Positions 30,243 to 36,670 of a stretch of 64,000 nt of DNA are shown here, one piece after another. Source of the DNA: Candidatus Eiseniibacteriota bacterium (GTDB taxonomy: Bacteria > Orphanbacterota > Orphanbacteria > Orphanbacterales > Orphanbacteraceae); assembly GCA_024276995.1 (NCBI GenBank), contig JAJRWB010000001.1:186001-250000 (forward strand), read 5' to 3'. The notes under the pieces are model-generated. The model was given only the letters and a program-made list of their open reading frames with translations. It was not told the DNA's origin and searched no databases. The stretch's first letter is position 1. The number at the start of each line of letters is the position of its first letter. Position numbers and translations under genes: made by a program.

Positions 30243-31139
30243 TCAGCGAAGTTGGCTCATGAACCGGTCCGCCTCGTTGCGAAGGTCCTGCACTTCCCCG
30301 ACGAGCGCGAGGAACTCCCCCTCTTCGAGATCGAAGGCGCTCATCGTCGCGGTGATGATCGACTCCTTCGTTTCCGGCCGCAGCTCGCTGCCGGCGAGAA
30401 GGGTGAGATTGTTCCCCATGACGATCGTCTTCCTGAAGTCGTCCCGCTCTCCTTCCCACTCACTGTTCGGTTCACCTCCGTCGTCCGCCGGGCCGAGCGC
30501 GTCGAGGGTGTGGTGTTCGCACGCCTCGCGGATCTTCTCGGGGAGTCCCCAGTGGTCGCACAGCAGCGATCCGATCCAGCTGCTCGAGGGTTGATCGAGT
30601 TCTCTTTCCGACTCGCTGAACAGGCAGAGATTCTCTTCGCGATGTTTCCGGATCACGCCGTAGTGATCGGGAAAGTACTTCACGTAGATCAGCTTGCCGA
30701 TGTCGTGGAGCATCGCCGCCGACCAGAGATCCTCTCTCGAAAGATGGGGAAGATAACGGTTCGCCAGGTGGCGCGCCGTGATCGCCGTGTAGAAGGAATG
30801 ATGCCAGAACGCCGTGAGTTCGTCCTTCTCCCGGATCGACAGCGTGTTGATCACCGAGAGAGAAAGGACCATGCGATAGACTTCGTTGTATCCGAGAAAG
30901 GCGATGGCGAACCGCGCCTTGGTGATTTCCTTCGGCAATCCGTAGTACGCGGAGTTCACCACCTTGAGAACCTGCGCCAGAAGGGCCGGATCGCTGCTGA
31001 TCAGGTCGGCCACCTCGCCGATGTCGGCGCTGTCGTCGCTCATGAGCGTCTGCACCTGGCCCACCACCTCGGGGAGCGCCGGCAGCGTGCAGTGCTGGCG
31101 GAGGAAATTCTTCGGATCAATTTCGAGCTGTGCGAGCAT
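30243..31139 (-). CDS. HDOD-domain signalling protein (downstream copy)
   Basis: 298 residues. A helical HDOD domain covers about 10-220 (LPALPEVVGQVQTLM, SDPALLAQVLKVVNSAYYGLP, AAMLHDIGKLIYVKYFP), followed by a helical tail. HDOD proteins are HD-GYP relatives, usually without catalysis, that act as regulators near chemotaxis, motility and stress genes. The motif HDIGK is kept, but the other metal ligands of true HD enzymes are not evident. ATG at 31139 forms TGATG with the kinase stop; a GTG at 31142 with AGGAG upstream is equally possible. Third gene of an HDOD-kinase-HDOD run downstream of the flagellar stator genes. Confidence 0.88.
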   Translation of the reverse strand: MLAQLEIDPKNFLRQHCTLPALPEVVGQVQTLMSDDSADIGEVADLISSDPALLAQVLKVVNSAYYGLPKEITKARFAIAFLGYNEVYRMVLSLSVINTLSIREKDELTAFWHHSFYTAITARHLANRYLPHLSREDLWSAAMLHDIGKLIYVKYFPDHYGVIRKHREENLCLFSESERELDQPSSSWIGSLLCDHWGLPEKIREACEHHTLDALGPADDGGEPNSEWEGERDDFRKTIVMGNNLTLLAGSELRPETKESIITATMSAFDLEEGEFLALVGEVQDLRNEADRFMSQLR

Positions 31140-32767
31140 CACTTCTCACTCCTGTTGGATAGCGGGCCGTCCCGGTCCGGTTCGTCGCCGGCTCTTTCGA
31201 TTGGAGGGCCGATCTCCCCGGGAAGGCGGATGACGAATTCCGTTCCCCCCTGCGCGGGGCGGTGGACGAGAATCTCACCGCCGTGCTCCTCGACGATCTT
31301 GCGGGTCACCGCCAGACCGAGACCGGTTCCCTTCGATCCTTTCGTCGTGAAGAGAGCGTCGAAGAGATGGGGCATATCGTTGTCGGCGATGCCGGGTCCG
31401 TCGTCTCTCACCGAAACGGTCACGGCCCCGCGGGCATCGGTCCCGCCGGTCGAAATCGTCACCGTTCCCCCTCCTTCCATCGCTTCGACGGCGTTGGTCA
31501 GGAGATTGGCGACGCAGCGGAAGATTCCGGCGGAGTCGATCGGAACGGTTCCGATCCGGTCGTCGAGATCGAGGACGAACCGGACATCCTTCTCCTTCGC
31601 AAGGCGCTCGTTCGCTTCGACAGCCTCGCCGATCAGCGAGTTGACGTCGACCGGTTCACGCCGGGGGGTCCGTGTCATGGAGAATTCGAGCATATCGAGC
31701 ACCAGCGTGGAGACCCTCTCCATCGCCTGCTCGAGCACGGGATACGATTCGACGACGCGACCGAGGTCCTTCTTTTCCACTCCCGATCGGAGAAGGTACA
31801 TGCCCGCCTGCATGGCGTGAAGCATGTTCCGAATATCGTGGGAGAGGCCGGCCATCACCTGGCCCGTGACCGCCTGTCTCTCCTTCCGGACCGCTTCGGC
31901 GTGGAGGGCCGCGTTGTCGACGCTGATGGCGGCGAGATGGCAGAGTCTTTCGGCGATCTCGAGGTAGGGCGAATCGTACGACGTCACCTTGGGGTTCGCC
32001 GTGGCCACCACGCCGAGAACGCGGTCTCCGTTTCGCAGTGGAAGAACGAGCAGCGATCGAAGCTCCACGTCGCGCCATGGGTCGGGCAGACCGCCGAGAT
32101 CGGGGTCGTGCAGGATGAGCGGTTCCCCGGCCTCCGCCACCGTTTCGCACACCGGTGTCCCGTCGAGACGAATGCAATCGGCCACCTCCCGCGGAAGGCC
32201 GAGGATCACCGGGTTGGTGAAGTCCGATTCGTCACGGAGCATCACGAGACCGACATCGCTTCCCACCACGCGAAGCACCTGTTCGAGGAGGCGGGCGAGA
32301 ACGAAATCTCTGTCGAAACTTCCGGCGATGGCGCTGATGTCCCCGAGCATCTCCGACCCGAGCCGGCGCTCCGCGCACTCGATCTCTTCTTGCTTCCACA
32401 GCTGCAGCTTGGTCATCGCCGCGCCGATGTGGACGGAGAGGATCCCGGCTTCGTCCTCTTCCACCCGCGAACCGGGCGCGACGAGAAGGTGACCGATGAC
32501 CTCCTTGCGGAACGAAAGGTCGATCGTCTTCCACGATACGCCGACGGCGTCGTTTTCCCCCGACACGGTCCGAACGTGGCGTCCGGCGCCCGCGAGGTAG
32601 GGGCGCCCTCCGGACGGCCCGCGAACCGATTCACGGATCTGCCACTCCACCGGGCCGAAGAGCTGTTCGATCAGTTCCCCGCACGCCTCGCCCAGTTCCC
32701 TTGTGTCGAGAGCTCCATGGAGGCGCTCCAGCGGCCGGGAGAGGTCGAGAATCGTCTGGTTCGTCAT
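31139..32767 (-). CDS. Soluble GAF-domain sensor histidine kinase
   Basis: 542 residues without transmembrane helices. A poorly conserved N-terminal region covers about 1-135. A GAF sensor domain lies at about 140-300 (LLEQVLRVVGSDVGLVMLRD, LRSLLVLPLRNGDRVLGVV). The HisKA helix has the phospho-acceptor in GLSHDIRNMLHAMQ near 318. The HATPase domain has N box NLLTNAVEAMEGGG near 435, G1 DDGPGIADND and G2 SKGTGLGLAV. The ATG at 32767 overlaps the HDOD stop (ATGA). No response-regulator gene is adjacent, so the partner is elsewhere or the output is through the flanking HDOD proteins. Ligand unknown. Confidence 0.93.
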   Translation of the reverse strand: MTNQTILDLSRPLERLHGALDTRELGEACGELIEQLFGPVEWQIRESVRGPSGGRPYLAGAGRHVRTVSGENDAVGVSWKTIDLSFRKEVIGHLLVAPGSRVEEDEAGILSVHIGAAMTKLQLWKQEEIECAERRLGSEMLGDISAIAGSFDRDFVLARLLEQVLRVVGSDVGLVMLRDESDFTNPVILGLPREVADCIRLDGTPVCETVAEAGEPLILHDPDLGGLPDPWRDVELRSLLVLPLRNGDRVLGVVATANPKVTSYDSPYLEIAERLCHLAAISVDNAALHAEAVRKERQAVTGQVMAGLSHDIRNMLHAMQAGMYLLRSGVEKKDLGRVVESYPVLEQAMERVSTLVLDMLEFSMTRTPRREPVDVNSLIGEAVEANERLAKEKDVRFVLDLDDRIGTVPIDSAGIFRCVANLLTNAVEAMEGGGTVTISTGGTDARGAVTVSVRDDGPGIADNDMPHLFDALFTTKGSKGTGLGLAVTRKIVEEHGGEILVHRPAQGGTEFVIRLPGEIGPPIERAGDEPDRDGPLSNRSEK

Positions 32768-33741
32768 CGTCCTCCTCCCAGGCTGGTGTAAAGCTCCTCG
32801 GCGCGGCACGCTTTTTCGGAGAAGCCGTCGAGAAGATCGTGGAACTCGGCGGAGGTGAGGCCGAACGTTTCGAGGATCGCCGCTTCCCTCCCGGTTCTCT
32901 CATCCGGCGCCGTCAAGCCGGTGCCGAGCCGCTCGGCGCCGACATTCGCCAGCGCCACCATGTTCACTTCGCGGGAGAACTCGTCGGGTGCCCCCGCCCA
33001 TCGGTGGTGCCGCGCGATGCACTGCGTGGTAACCTCGGCGAGGCGCCACGCGCGCGCGATGCGCTCGCCCACGGAGGCATGATTGTGGCCGCAGAGACTC
33101 TCCTCCCACTCCTCGATGTCGGGGCCGTCGTCGGAGCGGAAGGCCGTTTCCGTTCGCGAGGCGCCCTCCCGGTCGAGAAGCCGCGCAAGAACGATCTTCC
33201 CGATATCGTGGAGGAGTCCGCCGGCGAAGACGACGTCCTGCTCGTGGTTCATCCACCCCGCCTCCTGGGCGAGACGGCGGGCGAGTTCGGCGGTGACGTA
33301 GGAATGCATCCACAATCCGCCTTTCACCATTCCGTAGACCCCCACTTCCTGGCCGAGAAACTTGAGCGTCGCCGCCGCCATGGCGAGACTCTTCACCGTC
33401 TGCTGGCCGAGCATCACCACCGCCTGCTGCACCGACGTGACCGGAAGCCGGGGGCTGTAGAAAGCGGAGTTCGCGAGCCGGAGGAGCCTGGCGGTGAGTA
33501 CCGGGTCTTTCTCGACGCACTCCTTGAGATCCTTCGCGGCCGAAGTATCGCTGCTCGTCAGGCCGATCAACTCGGAGAGGATCGTTGGGAAGGCGGGTAG
33601 GTGGCGGATCCGCCGTTCGATCTCCGAGTCGATCTTCCGGCGTCGAACCTCGGGGACGCCGCGGGGCGCCACGTCGATGCCGCCGCCCTCCTCCTCGAAG
33701 GGCCCCCCTCTCCCGCGAATCCAGATCGGTTTCTGCGGCAT
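32764..33741 (-). CDS. HDOD-domain signalling protein (upstream copy)
   Basis: 325 residues with an N-terminal Arg/Gly-rich extension of about 45, then an HDOD domain (LPAFPTILSELIGLT, EKDPVLTARLLRLANSAFYSP, AGGLLHDIGKIVLARLLDRE). HNHASVGERIARAWRL and ARHHRWAG are also visible, so this copy keeps more of the HD-type histidines than the downstream one. ATG at 33741 has GGGAGAGG upstream. It lies 38 bases after the second motB-like gene and overlaps the kinase gene by four bases, placing all three signalling genes with the stator genes in one apparent transcription unit. Confidence 0.9.
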   Translation of the reverse strand: MPQKPIWIRGRGGPFEEEGGGIDVAPRGVPEVRRRKIDSEIERRIRHLPAFPTILSELIGLTSSDTSAAKDLKECVEKDPVLTARLLRLANSAFYSPRLPVTSVQQAVVMLGQQTVKSLAMAAATLKFLGQEVGVYGMVKGGLWMHSYVTAELARRLAQEAGWMNHEQDVVFAGGLLHDIGKIVLARLLDREGASRTETAFRSDDGPDIEEWEESLCGHNHASVGERIARAWRLAEVTTQCIARHHRWAGAPDEFSREVNMVALANVGAERLGTGLTAPDERTGREAAILETFGLTSAEFHDLLDGFSEKACRAEELYTSLGGGR

Positions 33742-33779: not shown

Positions 33780-34487
33780 CTATTCATCGACCAGATCAAG
33801 GCGGATCTCCACCCGTCTGTTCAGAATCCGGTGCGCTTCGTCGTCGTTCGGGTAGATCGGGCGGGAGGAACCGTAACCGACCGCTTTCAGACGTTCCCCC
33901 GGGACGCCGCGCGATTCGAGGTAGCGAACCACCTCCACCGCGCGCGCCACCGACAGATCCCAGTTCGACGGGAAGCGGGACGTGTGGATCGGAAGGTCAT
34001 CGGTGTGGCCCGCCACCTCCGCCTTCGCCGACCAATCGTTGATCAGTGAGGCGATTTCGTCGAGCACGGGGGAAGCTTCGCGGGTGAAGTCGGTTTCCCC
34101 CGGCGCGAAGAGGATCAAGCTGCCGAGGATCAGCTCGAGTCCCCCGTCGACGACGGCGACCTCCACCATGCCCGGCAGCTTCTCTCCCACGATTTCATCG
34201 ATCGTCTTCTCCACGGCGGCCGCTTCTTCCCTCGCCTTCGCCGGGTCGCCCCGGAAGGGGAGCACGCCCGAGCCTTCCTCGCCCACCATGCTCGACTGCC
34301 TGGCATACTTGAGAAGCGAGAAGGCGCCCTTCACCGAGCCGATCGCCTCCCGGAAACGGGGATCGTCGATCTGCGCGAGGGAGACCATGATCACCATGAA
34401 GCAAAGGAGAAGGAGCATCAGCGCGATGAAGGTCATCTCGAACGACTCGTCCGCTCCGAGAAAGATCTTTTTCGTCTTCTCCGCCAA
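33780..34487 (-). CDS. MotB-like stator protein lacking the ion-binding aspartate
   Basis: 235-residue MotB/OmpA-type protein: one transmembrane helix at about 18-38, a linker, and a C-terminal peptidoglycan-binding OmpA domain (VAGHTDDLPIHTSRFPSNWD, then LNRRVEIRLDL). Gapless alignment of its helix start SFEMTFIALM with the SWLATFADLA of the neighbouring MotB puts Ala22 where the essential proton/sodium-binding Asp should be. TTG at 34487 is the likely start, five bases after the motB stop; no ATG or GTG fits as well. It may form mixed stators with the neighbouring MotB, serve as a peptidoglycan anchor, or be a non-conducting regulator. Identity is firm; role is inference. Confidence 0.85.
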   Translation of the reverse strand: MAEKTKKIFLGADESFEMTFIALMLLLLCFMVIMVSLAQIDDPRFREAIGSVKGAFSLLKYARQSSMVGEEGSGVLPFRGDPAKAREEAAAVEKTIDEIVGEKLPGMVEVAVVDGGLELILGSLILFAPGETDFTREASPVLDEIASLINDWSAKAEVAGHTDDLPIHTSRFPSNWDLSVARAVEVVRYLESRGVPGERLKAVGYGSSRPIYPNDDEAHRILNRRVEIRLDLVDE

Positions 34488-34491
34488 TTCT

Positions 34492-35262
34492 TTACCCCGG
34501 AAGTCCCGTGTCGTGATCCCTGAAATTGAGCAGAATATCGACACGGCGGTTCAGCCGCCGCTCCCGCTCGGTGCGGTTCGGCGCGCGGGGGGCGTACTCG
34601 CCGCACGCCACCGCGCGAATCGACGAAGAGCCGATGCCTTGGCTTTCGAGAAACCGCACGATTGCCGCGGCGCGCGCGCCGGAAAGCTCCCAGTTCGACG
34701 GCCACCGCCCTCCCGCGACCGGGATATTATCGGTATGCCCCTCGACGCGGATGTCGCACGGTCGCGCGCGGCCCACCGCGGCGATCGCCCTGAGGAAGGG
34801 GTAGCTCGCCGGTGTCGGCTCGGCCATGCCCAATCCGAACATGATCGGATCGGAGAAGCGGAAGAGGACGCCCTCCTCGGTCGCCTCGACGGAGAGCTGG
34901 TCGATGTCGTGCCGCTCCTGTGCGAGGTCGATCACGTCGTTGATCCGGCTCTCCACCTCGGCGCGCTGCTCCGGCGTCATGGAAAAGGGGTTGGTGAAGA
35001 GGGGAACGACTGCGTTGTACGCGGGGAGCGACCCGTCGCCCGCGCTCCGGTAAAGGCTCATCTTGGTCCCTCCGGCGAGGACGGAAAGCATCTTCTTTAG
35101 GGCCGGGTTCTTCGTCGGCTCCCACTTGCCCGGCTGGTAGGTGCACGAACCGTAGATCAGGCAGTAGAAAGTGAAAAGGAGCGTGGCGAGATCGGCGAAC
35201 GTGGCGAGCCACGAGGCGCTCTCTTCCTGGATGATCTCGACCTTCTTCTTCTCCGAGGCCAT
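34492..35262 (-). CDS. motB: Flagellar stator protein MotB
   Basis: Couples ion flow to torque and anchors the stator to peptidoglycan. 256 residues: transmembrane helix at about 18-40 with the ion-binding aspartate D24 in WLATFADLATLL, a plug/linker region, and an OmpA-like domain near 165-245 (VEGHTDNIPVAGGRWPSNWELS, RRLNRRVDILL). The ATG at 35262 overlaps the motA stop; an in-frame GTG at 35265 precedes it. Ends in TAA five bases before the second MotB-like gene, suggesting a motA-motB-motB* operon. Confidence 0.94.
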   Translation of the reverse strand: MASEKKKVEIIQEESASWLATFADLATLLFTFYCLIYGSCTYQPGKWEPTKNPALKKMLSVLAGGTKMSLYRSAGDGSLPAYNAVVPLFTNPFSMTPEQRAEVESRINDVIDLAQERHDIDQLSVEATEEGVLFRFSDPIMFGLGMAEPTPASYPFLRAIAAVGRARPCDIRVEGHTDNIPVAGGRWPSNWELSGARAAAIVRFLESQGIGSSSIRAVACGEYAPRAPNRTERERRLNRRVDILLNFRDHDTGLPG

Positions 35263-36038
35263 CACTTCGCCTCGACGGGCTGCATTTTCTCCCGAACCGC
35301 CGGGGGCAGGAAGGTCTTCAGTTTCTTCTCCACCAGGCGCGGGTTGTCGCCCGACTGAATCGACTTGATCCCCTCGAGGACGAGATTCTTCACGAGCACT
35401 TCGTTCTCGGAGATCGTCTCGAGCTTGCCCGCCAGGGGGAGGCAGATGAGGTTCGCCACGAGAGTGCCGTAGAACGTCGTCAAGAGGGCGACCGCCATGC
35501 CGGGGCCGATGCTCGACGGATCGTTCACGTTTTTCAGCATCTGAATCAGGCCGATCAACGTGCCCATCATGCCGAAGGCGGGTGCGTACTTCGCCATCTG
35601 TTTGAACATCGCCTGGCCGCGCTTATGCCGCTCGGTGAGCAGTTCCACCTCCATCGACATGAGCGCATCGATCCGTTCGAGATCCATCCCGTCGATGGCG
35701 AGTTCCATTCCCGCCTTCAGGAAAGCATCCTTCGTCTCCTTCAGCTCCCCTTCGAGGGCGAGGAGCCCTTCCCGCCGGGCGGTCTCGGCGAAGCCGATGA
35801 GAGTCTTAATCGTGTTTTCCGGGCTCGCCGCCTTGTTCATGAAGGCGTTCTGCACCACCTTCATGACGCCGACGAAATCGGGAACCGGGTAGTTGATCAG
35901 CGTGGCGGCGGCGGTGCCCCCGATCACGATGAGCAGGGAGGGGACATTGATGAACGAACCGAGATCGCCGCCCATGAGGATCGACCCGATGAGCAGGCCG
36001 AATCCGACGACGATGCCGACTACCGTTCCGAGATCCAT
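35262..36038 (-). CDS. motA: Flagellar stator protein MotA
   Basis: Inner-membrane stator subunit of 258 residues with four transmembrane helices. The rotor-interacting cytoplasmic loop has the charged segment AETARREGLLALEGEL near residue 86. The channel-lining prolines are in KYAPAFGMMGTLIGLI near 150 and NLICLPLAGKLE near 200. The start MDLGTVVGIVVGFGLLIGSI is typical. It lies downstream of flbD by 36 bases and overlaps motB. The TolQ/ExbB fold is shared, but the flagellar context settles the call. Confidence 0.95.
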   Translation of the reverse strand: MDLGTVVGIVVGFGLLIGSILMGGDLGSFINVPSLLIVIGGTAAATLINYPVPDFVGVMKVVQNAFMNKAASPENTIKTLIGFAETARREGLLALEGELKETKDAFLKAGMELAIDGMDLERIDALMSMEVELLTERHKRGQAMFKQMAKYAPAFGMMGTLIGLIQMLKNVNDPSSIGPGMAVALLTTFYGTLVANLICLPLAGKLETISENEVLVKNLVLEGIKSIQSGDNPRLVEKKLKTFLPPAVREKMQPVEAK

Positions 36039-36335: not shown

Positions 36336-36632
36336 TCAGAGTCCGAAAAGGTCGAGGACGCGCTCGGCGACGGTGCGCAGCGCTTCCTCCGAGTCATAGA
36401 ACTCCGAGTCGATCCGTTCGTGAATCTCGTTCAGTTTCGAAGGAGTCTGATCGAAATCGACCGGCCGTTCCTCGCCCCGCCCCGCATGGAGCTTTCTTCC
36501 TTCTTCCGAGATGTTCACACTGTCGCGGACGGCGCCGGAAGAGCCGCGCTTTCCCGTCTTCTTCCGCGAACCGCCCTCGATGGTGCTCCCCTTCTCCGGA
36601 TTCAGGGGAATGCCTCCATTTTCAATTCTCAT
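36336..36632 (-). CDS. Small flagellar-locus protein, FlgM-like
   Basis: 98 residues. The N-terminal half is basic and probably disordered (about 12-37). Next comes RDSVNISEEGRKLHAG, resembling the DxVxIS(E/K)xAxxL segment of FlgM proteins. A C-terminal helical part follows: KLNEIHERIDSEFYDSEEAL, then a final helix of about twelve residues. FlgM, the anti-sigma-28 factor, has this layout and length, and the gene lies next to fliD in a genome with fliA. The similarity is by eye and modest, so the assignment is tentative. ATG at 36632, with an in-frame GTG at 36635. Confidence 0.55.
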   Translation of the reverse strand: MRIENGGIPLNPEKGSTIEGGSRKKTGKRGSSGAVRDSVNISEEGRKLHAGRGEERPVDFDQTPSKLNEIHERIDSEFYDSEEALRTVAERVLDLFGL

Positions 36633-36670
36633 CACTGCCGCGTCCTTTCACACGAAGGTGAATCCGCGTC

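Follow-up and report, generated by a model that had tools for sequence, protein, structure and literature searches.

The window, the 64,000-nucleotide stretch of DNA analysed here, contains a flagellar stator locus in which a single motA gene is followed by two motB genes, the second of which (motB*) encodes a protein with alanine in place of the ion-binding aspartate. Based on sequence comparisons across several phyla, we lean, on somewhat better than even grounds, towards the view that this triplet encodes a MotA5 stator assembled around an unlike MotB/MotB* pair, in which we infer that the only ion site sits on one chain and the only good plug on the other. The three genes lie head to tail on the minus strand, with the following features:

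35262..36038, minus strand: motA, 258 aa, the sole MotA detected in the genome
34492..35262, minus strand: motB, the Asp-bearing B subunit, with an ATG start, a degenerate plug region and an OmpA-like domain
35191..35193, minus strand: GAT codon of Asp24 of MotB, the ion-binding position, invariant in the phylum alignment
35089..35133, minus strand: residues 44-58 of MotB at the plug position, degenerate (ungapped plug score -27; single MotBs average ~+17)
33780..34487, minus strand: motB*, the Asp-less B subunit, with a likely TTG start, a transmembrane (TM) helix, a canonical plug and an OmpA-like domain
34422..34424, minus strand: GCG codon of Ala22 of MotB*, replacing the ion-binding Asp; Ala in 4/4 triplets of the phylum
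34320..34364, minus strand: plug helix of MotB*, residues 42-56, canonical (ungapped plug score +25; MotB_plug profile matched to 58/58)

The ATG of motB overlaps the stop codon of motA (TGATG), and the likely start of motB* lies ~4 nt past the stop codon of motB. Judging from the family alignment, this TTG is the most likely start; the GTG given at 34544 in the list of reading frames probably lies 57 bases upstream of the true one. On the minus strand, nothing resembling a terminator was detected between the three genes. Genes for FlbD, FliD, FliS and flagellin are located upstream of the triplet and FliG is encoded elsewhere on the same contig, marking this as a flagellar locus. Between flbD and fliD there is also a reading frame of 99 aa (36336-36635, minus strand) without a Pfam match. 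Immediately downstream of motB*, two HDOD-domain proteins and a GAF histidine kinase are encoded (30243-31142, 31139-32809 and 32764-33741, all on the minus strand), and the relatives L009, L010 and L011 likewise encode an HDOD protein after motB*.

The MotA protein matched Pfam MotA_ExbB (2e-29) and aligned with Vibrio PomA (8bri; E 1.9e-61) along almost its entire sequence. In this alignment it keeps the three threonines equivalent to PomA T158, T185 and T186, from which Na+ is likely to be the ion used; a search for the threonine pattern among the MotAs of the triplets gave no call for three of them. In the window's genome (assembly 96% complete) MotA was the only match at E <= 1e-20, and the four other MotA_ExbB matches look like ExbB/TolQ rather than MotA. 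Only two proteins with a MotB_plug domain were present, both at the triplet locus. MotB* is thus left without a distant partner, and the pairing with a second, distant MotA that the original prediction had named as a way to refute it was not borne out; for this genome we rule it out.

MotB and MotB* are 29% identical (BLASTP, E 4e-29). The segments SWLATFADLA of MotB and SFEMTFIALM of MotB* align without gaps, exactly where the original prediction had placed them, with Asp24 opposite Ala22, so that the TM aspartate typical of the MotB family is present in MotB and absent from MotB*. Both proteins matched Pfam MotB_plug (6e-7, 1.4e-6) and Pfam OmpA (9.5e-13, 2.8e-18), and their OmpA-like domains have the motif GHTD..LS..RA in common. 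An AF2 model of MotB* (from a six-row alignment, pLDDT 67) comprised helices at residues 14-39 (TM) and 43-60 (at the plug position) and an OmpA-like C-terminal domain. With Foldseek, this model matched the periplasmic domain of MotS (E 2.6e-14) as well as periplasmic structures of PomB and MotB. The Pfam match, the motif and the fold together agree with the earlier claim that the peptidoglycan-binding domain of MotB* is intact. As a separate observation within the window's clade, some MotB or MotB* proteins (L072, L071, L074, L100 and L101) have Cys in place of the Asp of GHTD, giving GHTC, without a clear pattern.

Within the window's phylum, for which our sample comprised seven genomes of one family, the triplet was present in all four MotA-bearing genomes, among them the MAGs JAJCZU01 (Candidatus Eisenbacteria bacterium OFTM309) and JALGYY01. 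The Ala was fixed in MotB* and embedded in a segment (IALMLLLLCFMVIMVSxAQ) that was invariant in these genomes; the Asp of MotB was equally invariant across the four triplets. The TM helix of MotB* was also more conserved than the remainder of the protein. The other family members, G003, G005 (only 82% complete) and G006, gave no match to MotA and probably lack flagella. A sequencing or assembly error, or chance, behind Ala22 is ruled out by this phylum-wide invariance and by the 28 genomes in which an Asp-less MotB was found.

These 28 genomes emerged from a MotA search over 386 genomes, after which 100 loci beyond the family were read for B genes, and from a further search in the phyla of the positives, which added 11 genomes. 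In the first sample, with the family included, 17 of the 23 loci with two motB genes combined one Asp-bearing and one Asp-less MotB, and the remaining six had the Asp in both, whereas the Asp was kept at all 78 single-MotB loci that could be scored (17/23 versus 0/78; Fisher p 1.3e-14, a value to be read with the caveat that related genomes are not independent). At the Asp position, the 28 Asp-less proteins carry Ala (10), Ser (11) or Thr (7). In each of the 28 genomes the Asp-less MotB is encoded directly beside an Asp-bearing MotB, and in none of them was it found alone; in G410, MotA lay outside the stretch that was read. The pair was detected in phylum A (that of the window), B (G140/G277), C (G320/G186), D (G054), E (G210/G340), F (G220) and G (G040). 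Since the lists for these seven phyla are disjoint and two further genomes, G236 and G162, fall outside all of them and hence add at least one more phylum, the pair occurs in at least eight phyla. The Asp-bearing gene precedes motB* in phylum B (G140/G277) and the window's phylum, and follows it elsewhere. Five of the Asp-less genomes (G054, G220, G210, G340 and G236) encode further MotAs, which are conceivable partners for their MotB*. Adjacent motB genes that both retain the Asp were also seen (L107, L118, L114, L115, L116 and L198; L246, L251 and L254), possibly as earlier stages or as duplicates with another role. At L111, L136, L147, L151 and L171 and at most Asp-less loci in phylum E, many of the MotB* proteins have an Asn 13 residues past the lost Asp, inside the TM helix (FFILLNS); in other MotBs this position is mostly taken by Phe, Leu, Val or Tyr.

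The two chains also differ in the plug. In Vibrio PomB, the plug helix spans residues 44-58, that is, 20 to 34 residues past D24, and I50, M54 and F58 insert into PomA (PMC10374538). We scored the corresponding segment against single MotBs. Without gaps, mean scores were 18.9 for MotB*, 16.6 for single MotBs and -2.7 for the Asp-bearing partners, and MotB* scored above its partner in 26/26 pairs. When gaps were allowed, the means were 16.0 (MotB*) and 5.1 (partner), with MotB* higher in 14/16 pairs, a slight reversal in the pairs of G054 and G162, and the largest difference in the window's phylum. The decay is partial in some partners; the MotBs of phylum B, for instance, retain part of the plug. 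Consistent with these scores, the window's MotB covers only positions 8-39 of the 58 positions of the MotB_plug profile, while MotB* reaches position 58. A plug helix on each B subunit, as expected of a MotA/MotB stator, is therefore not what the triplet encodes: MotB* has the plug, and that of MotB is degenerate. Beyond the Asp, MotB* proteins mostly lack the aromatic Trp six residues before it (D-6). The Thr at D-3, which in PomB binds Na+ (PMC10374538), has also been lost from MotB* in most lineages other than those of the window's clade. Both paralogues keep the OmpA-like domain. A homodimer would need plug and Asp on both of its chains, and their reciprocal loss, of the plug in MotB and of the Asp in MotB*, leads us to expect the two chains in one complex.

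In a tree of 125 B proteins, built with the Asp and Trp columns masked, the Asp-less proteins fell in three places. A more careful tree of 66 B proteins indicated at least two origins of the Asp-less state, with a single origin in 0/200 bootstrap trees. The AU test against a single Asp-less clade was borderline (p 0.051), which makes the number of independent losses uncertain; overall, the tree favours at least two. Whichever the number of origins, the Asp-less state is old and has been retained. In two close genome pairs, the dN/dS of MotB* was 0.28 and 0.08 (the second pair with dS near saturation), near the values of the partner MotB.

In the arrangement that we favour, five MotA subunits would surround one MotB and one MotB*. 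MotB would provide the sole ion-binding aspartate, giving one ion site instead of two, and MotB* would contribute a second peptidoglycan anchor and the good plug helix, which holds the stator closed before assembly. In the published cycle, one proton passes per 36-degree step and ten per MotA turn (PMC9389320); with one ion site, the same scheme predicts that the unit would move ~5 ions per turn. Against this reading, homodimeric stators are described as requiring the Asp (PMC9093738), plug decay is partial in some partners, and in the five genomes with further MotAs MotB* might pair elsewhere. The original prediction had left the choice between such a heterodimer with one ion path and a non-conducting anchor or brake. 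Recurrence in at least eight phyla and the reciprocal loss of plug and Asp favour the former, and the latter is the less favoured of the two.

A non-conducting role could arise if two homodimeric stators shared MotA, with MotA5(MotB)2 driving rotation and MotA5(MotB*)2 taking up stator slots to brake the motor, regulate its torque or serve as a spare anchor. Each paralogue has a TM helix and an OmpA-like domain and could dimerise, one MotA could serve both, and stator numbers in motors are dynamic (PMC9039648). However, both plugs of the driver would in that case be degenerate and both of the non-conductor good, the opposite of what selection should produce: a MotB dimer would lack a good plug and a MotB* dimer would have nothing to plug. 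Plug deletion is indeed harmful when the deleted form is overexpressed, causing ion influx and growth inhibition (PMC10374538). We therefore regard shared-MotA homodimers as unlikely, if still a serious contender. More doubtful is that MotB* sits outside the MotA ring as a membrane-anchored peptidoglycan scaffold beside the stator, like FliL or the MotX/MotY ring. The missing ion site and, in most lineages, the missing D-6 aromatic and D-3 Thr would fit such a role, as would the retained OmpA-like domain, but MotB* keeps the plug helix, which binds MotA in known structures, and in the window's phylum its TM helix is conserved above the rest of the protein, which is unexpected for a plain anchor.

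If MotB* conducted ions by way of a different residue, for example Glu17 at D-5, two ion sites would be left in place, and a substitute acid of this kind was a further outcome that the original prediction had said would overturn it. Glu or Asp does occupy this position in G277 and the window's phylum, but it is missing from G140 and all other Asp-less lineages checked and lies on a different helical face from the Asp. As the TM helix offers no consistent acidic substitute, a compensating residue is rejected as a general explanation, and we consider this reading very improbable. Least credible of all is a functionless, decaying duplicate. In its favour, MotB* has lost a residue that homodimeric stators are described as requiring (PMC9093738), yet dN/dS is well below 1, the TM segment is invariant in the window's phylum and MotB* persists in at least eight phyla.

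In the alignment of MotA and in B subunits that combine a TM helix with an OmpA-like domain, the triplet resembles PomAB of Vibrio (8bri), MotAB of Campylobacter (6ykm) and the Clostridium-type 6ysf. It differs from the known MotA5B2 and PomA5B2 complexes, whose two B chains are identical and each carry Asp and plug, in that Asp and good plug reside on different proteins. Among the closest known systems is the motA/motB1/motB2 operon of Aquifex aeolicus, with one motA followed by two motB genes; there, the N-terminal and TM regions of motB1 and motB2 are 97% identical and both chimeras work with MotA (PMC4525482), whereas MotB* of the window lacks the Asp. In our own sample, G016 keeps the Asp in both of its MotBs. 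The AglR-AglQ-AglS system of Myxococcus xanthus also joins one A-type subunit with two B-type homologues, but AglQ and AglS are both described as carrying the conserved Asp and form part of a gliding motor (PMC9389320), in contrast to the Asp-less MotB* and its flagellar neighbours. Whether AglQ and AglS pair as heterodimers is stated to be an open question (PMC9389320). The open-access literature that we searched contained no description of an Asp-less MotB.

More broadly, MotA5-MotB-MotB* may be a widespread, repeatedly evolved asymmetric stator that uses the ion site of one chain and the plug of the other, passes ~5 rather than ten ions per turn and does not need two-site alternation; we put this forward tentatively, as falling just short of an even prospect. 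Models of 5:2 rotary motors assume two identical ion-binding aspartates that take turns. If the proposal is true, natural stators in which only one of the two B chains bears the Asp would demonstrate that a single ion site can suffice, and the expected ion cost per turn would change. The unlike B chains would also offer a built-in means of labelling each chain separately, and the triplet makes the question raised by AglQ and AglS (PMC9389320), whether unlike B chains can form a motor axle, a testable one.
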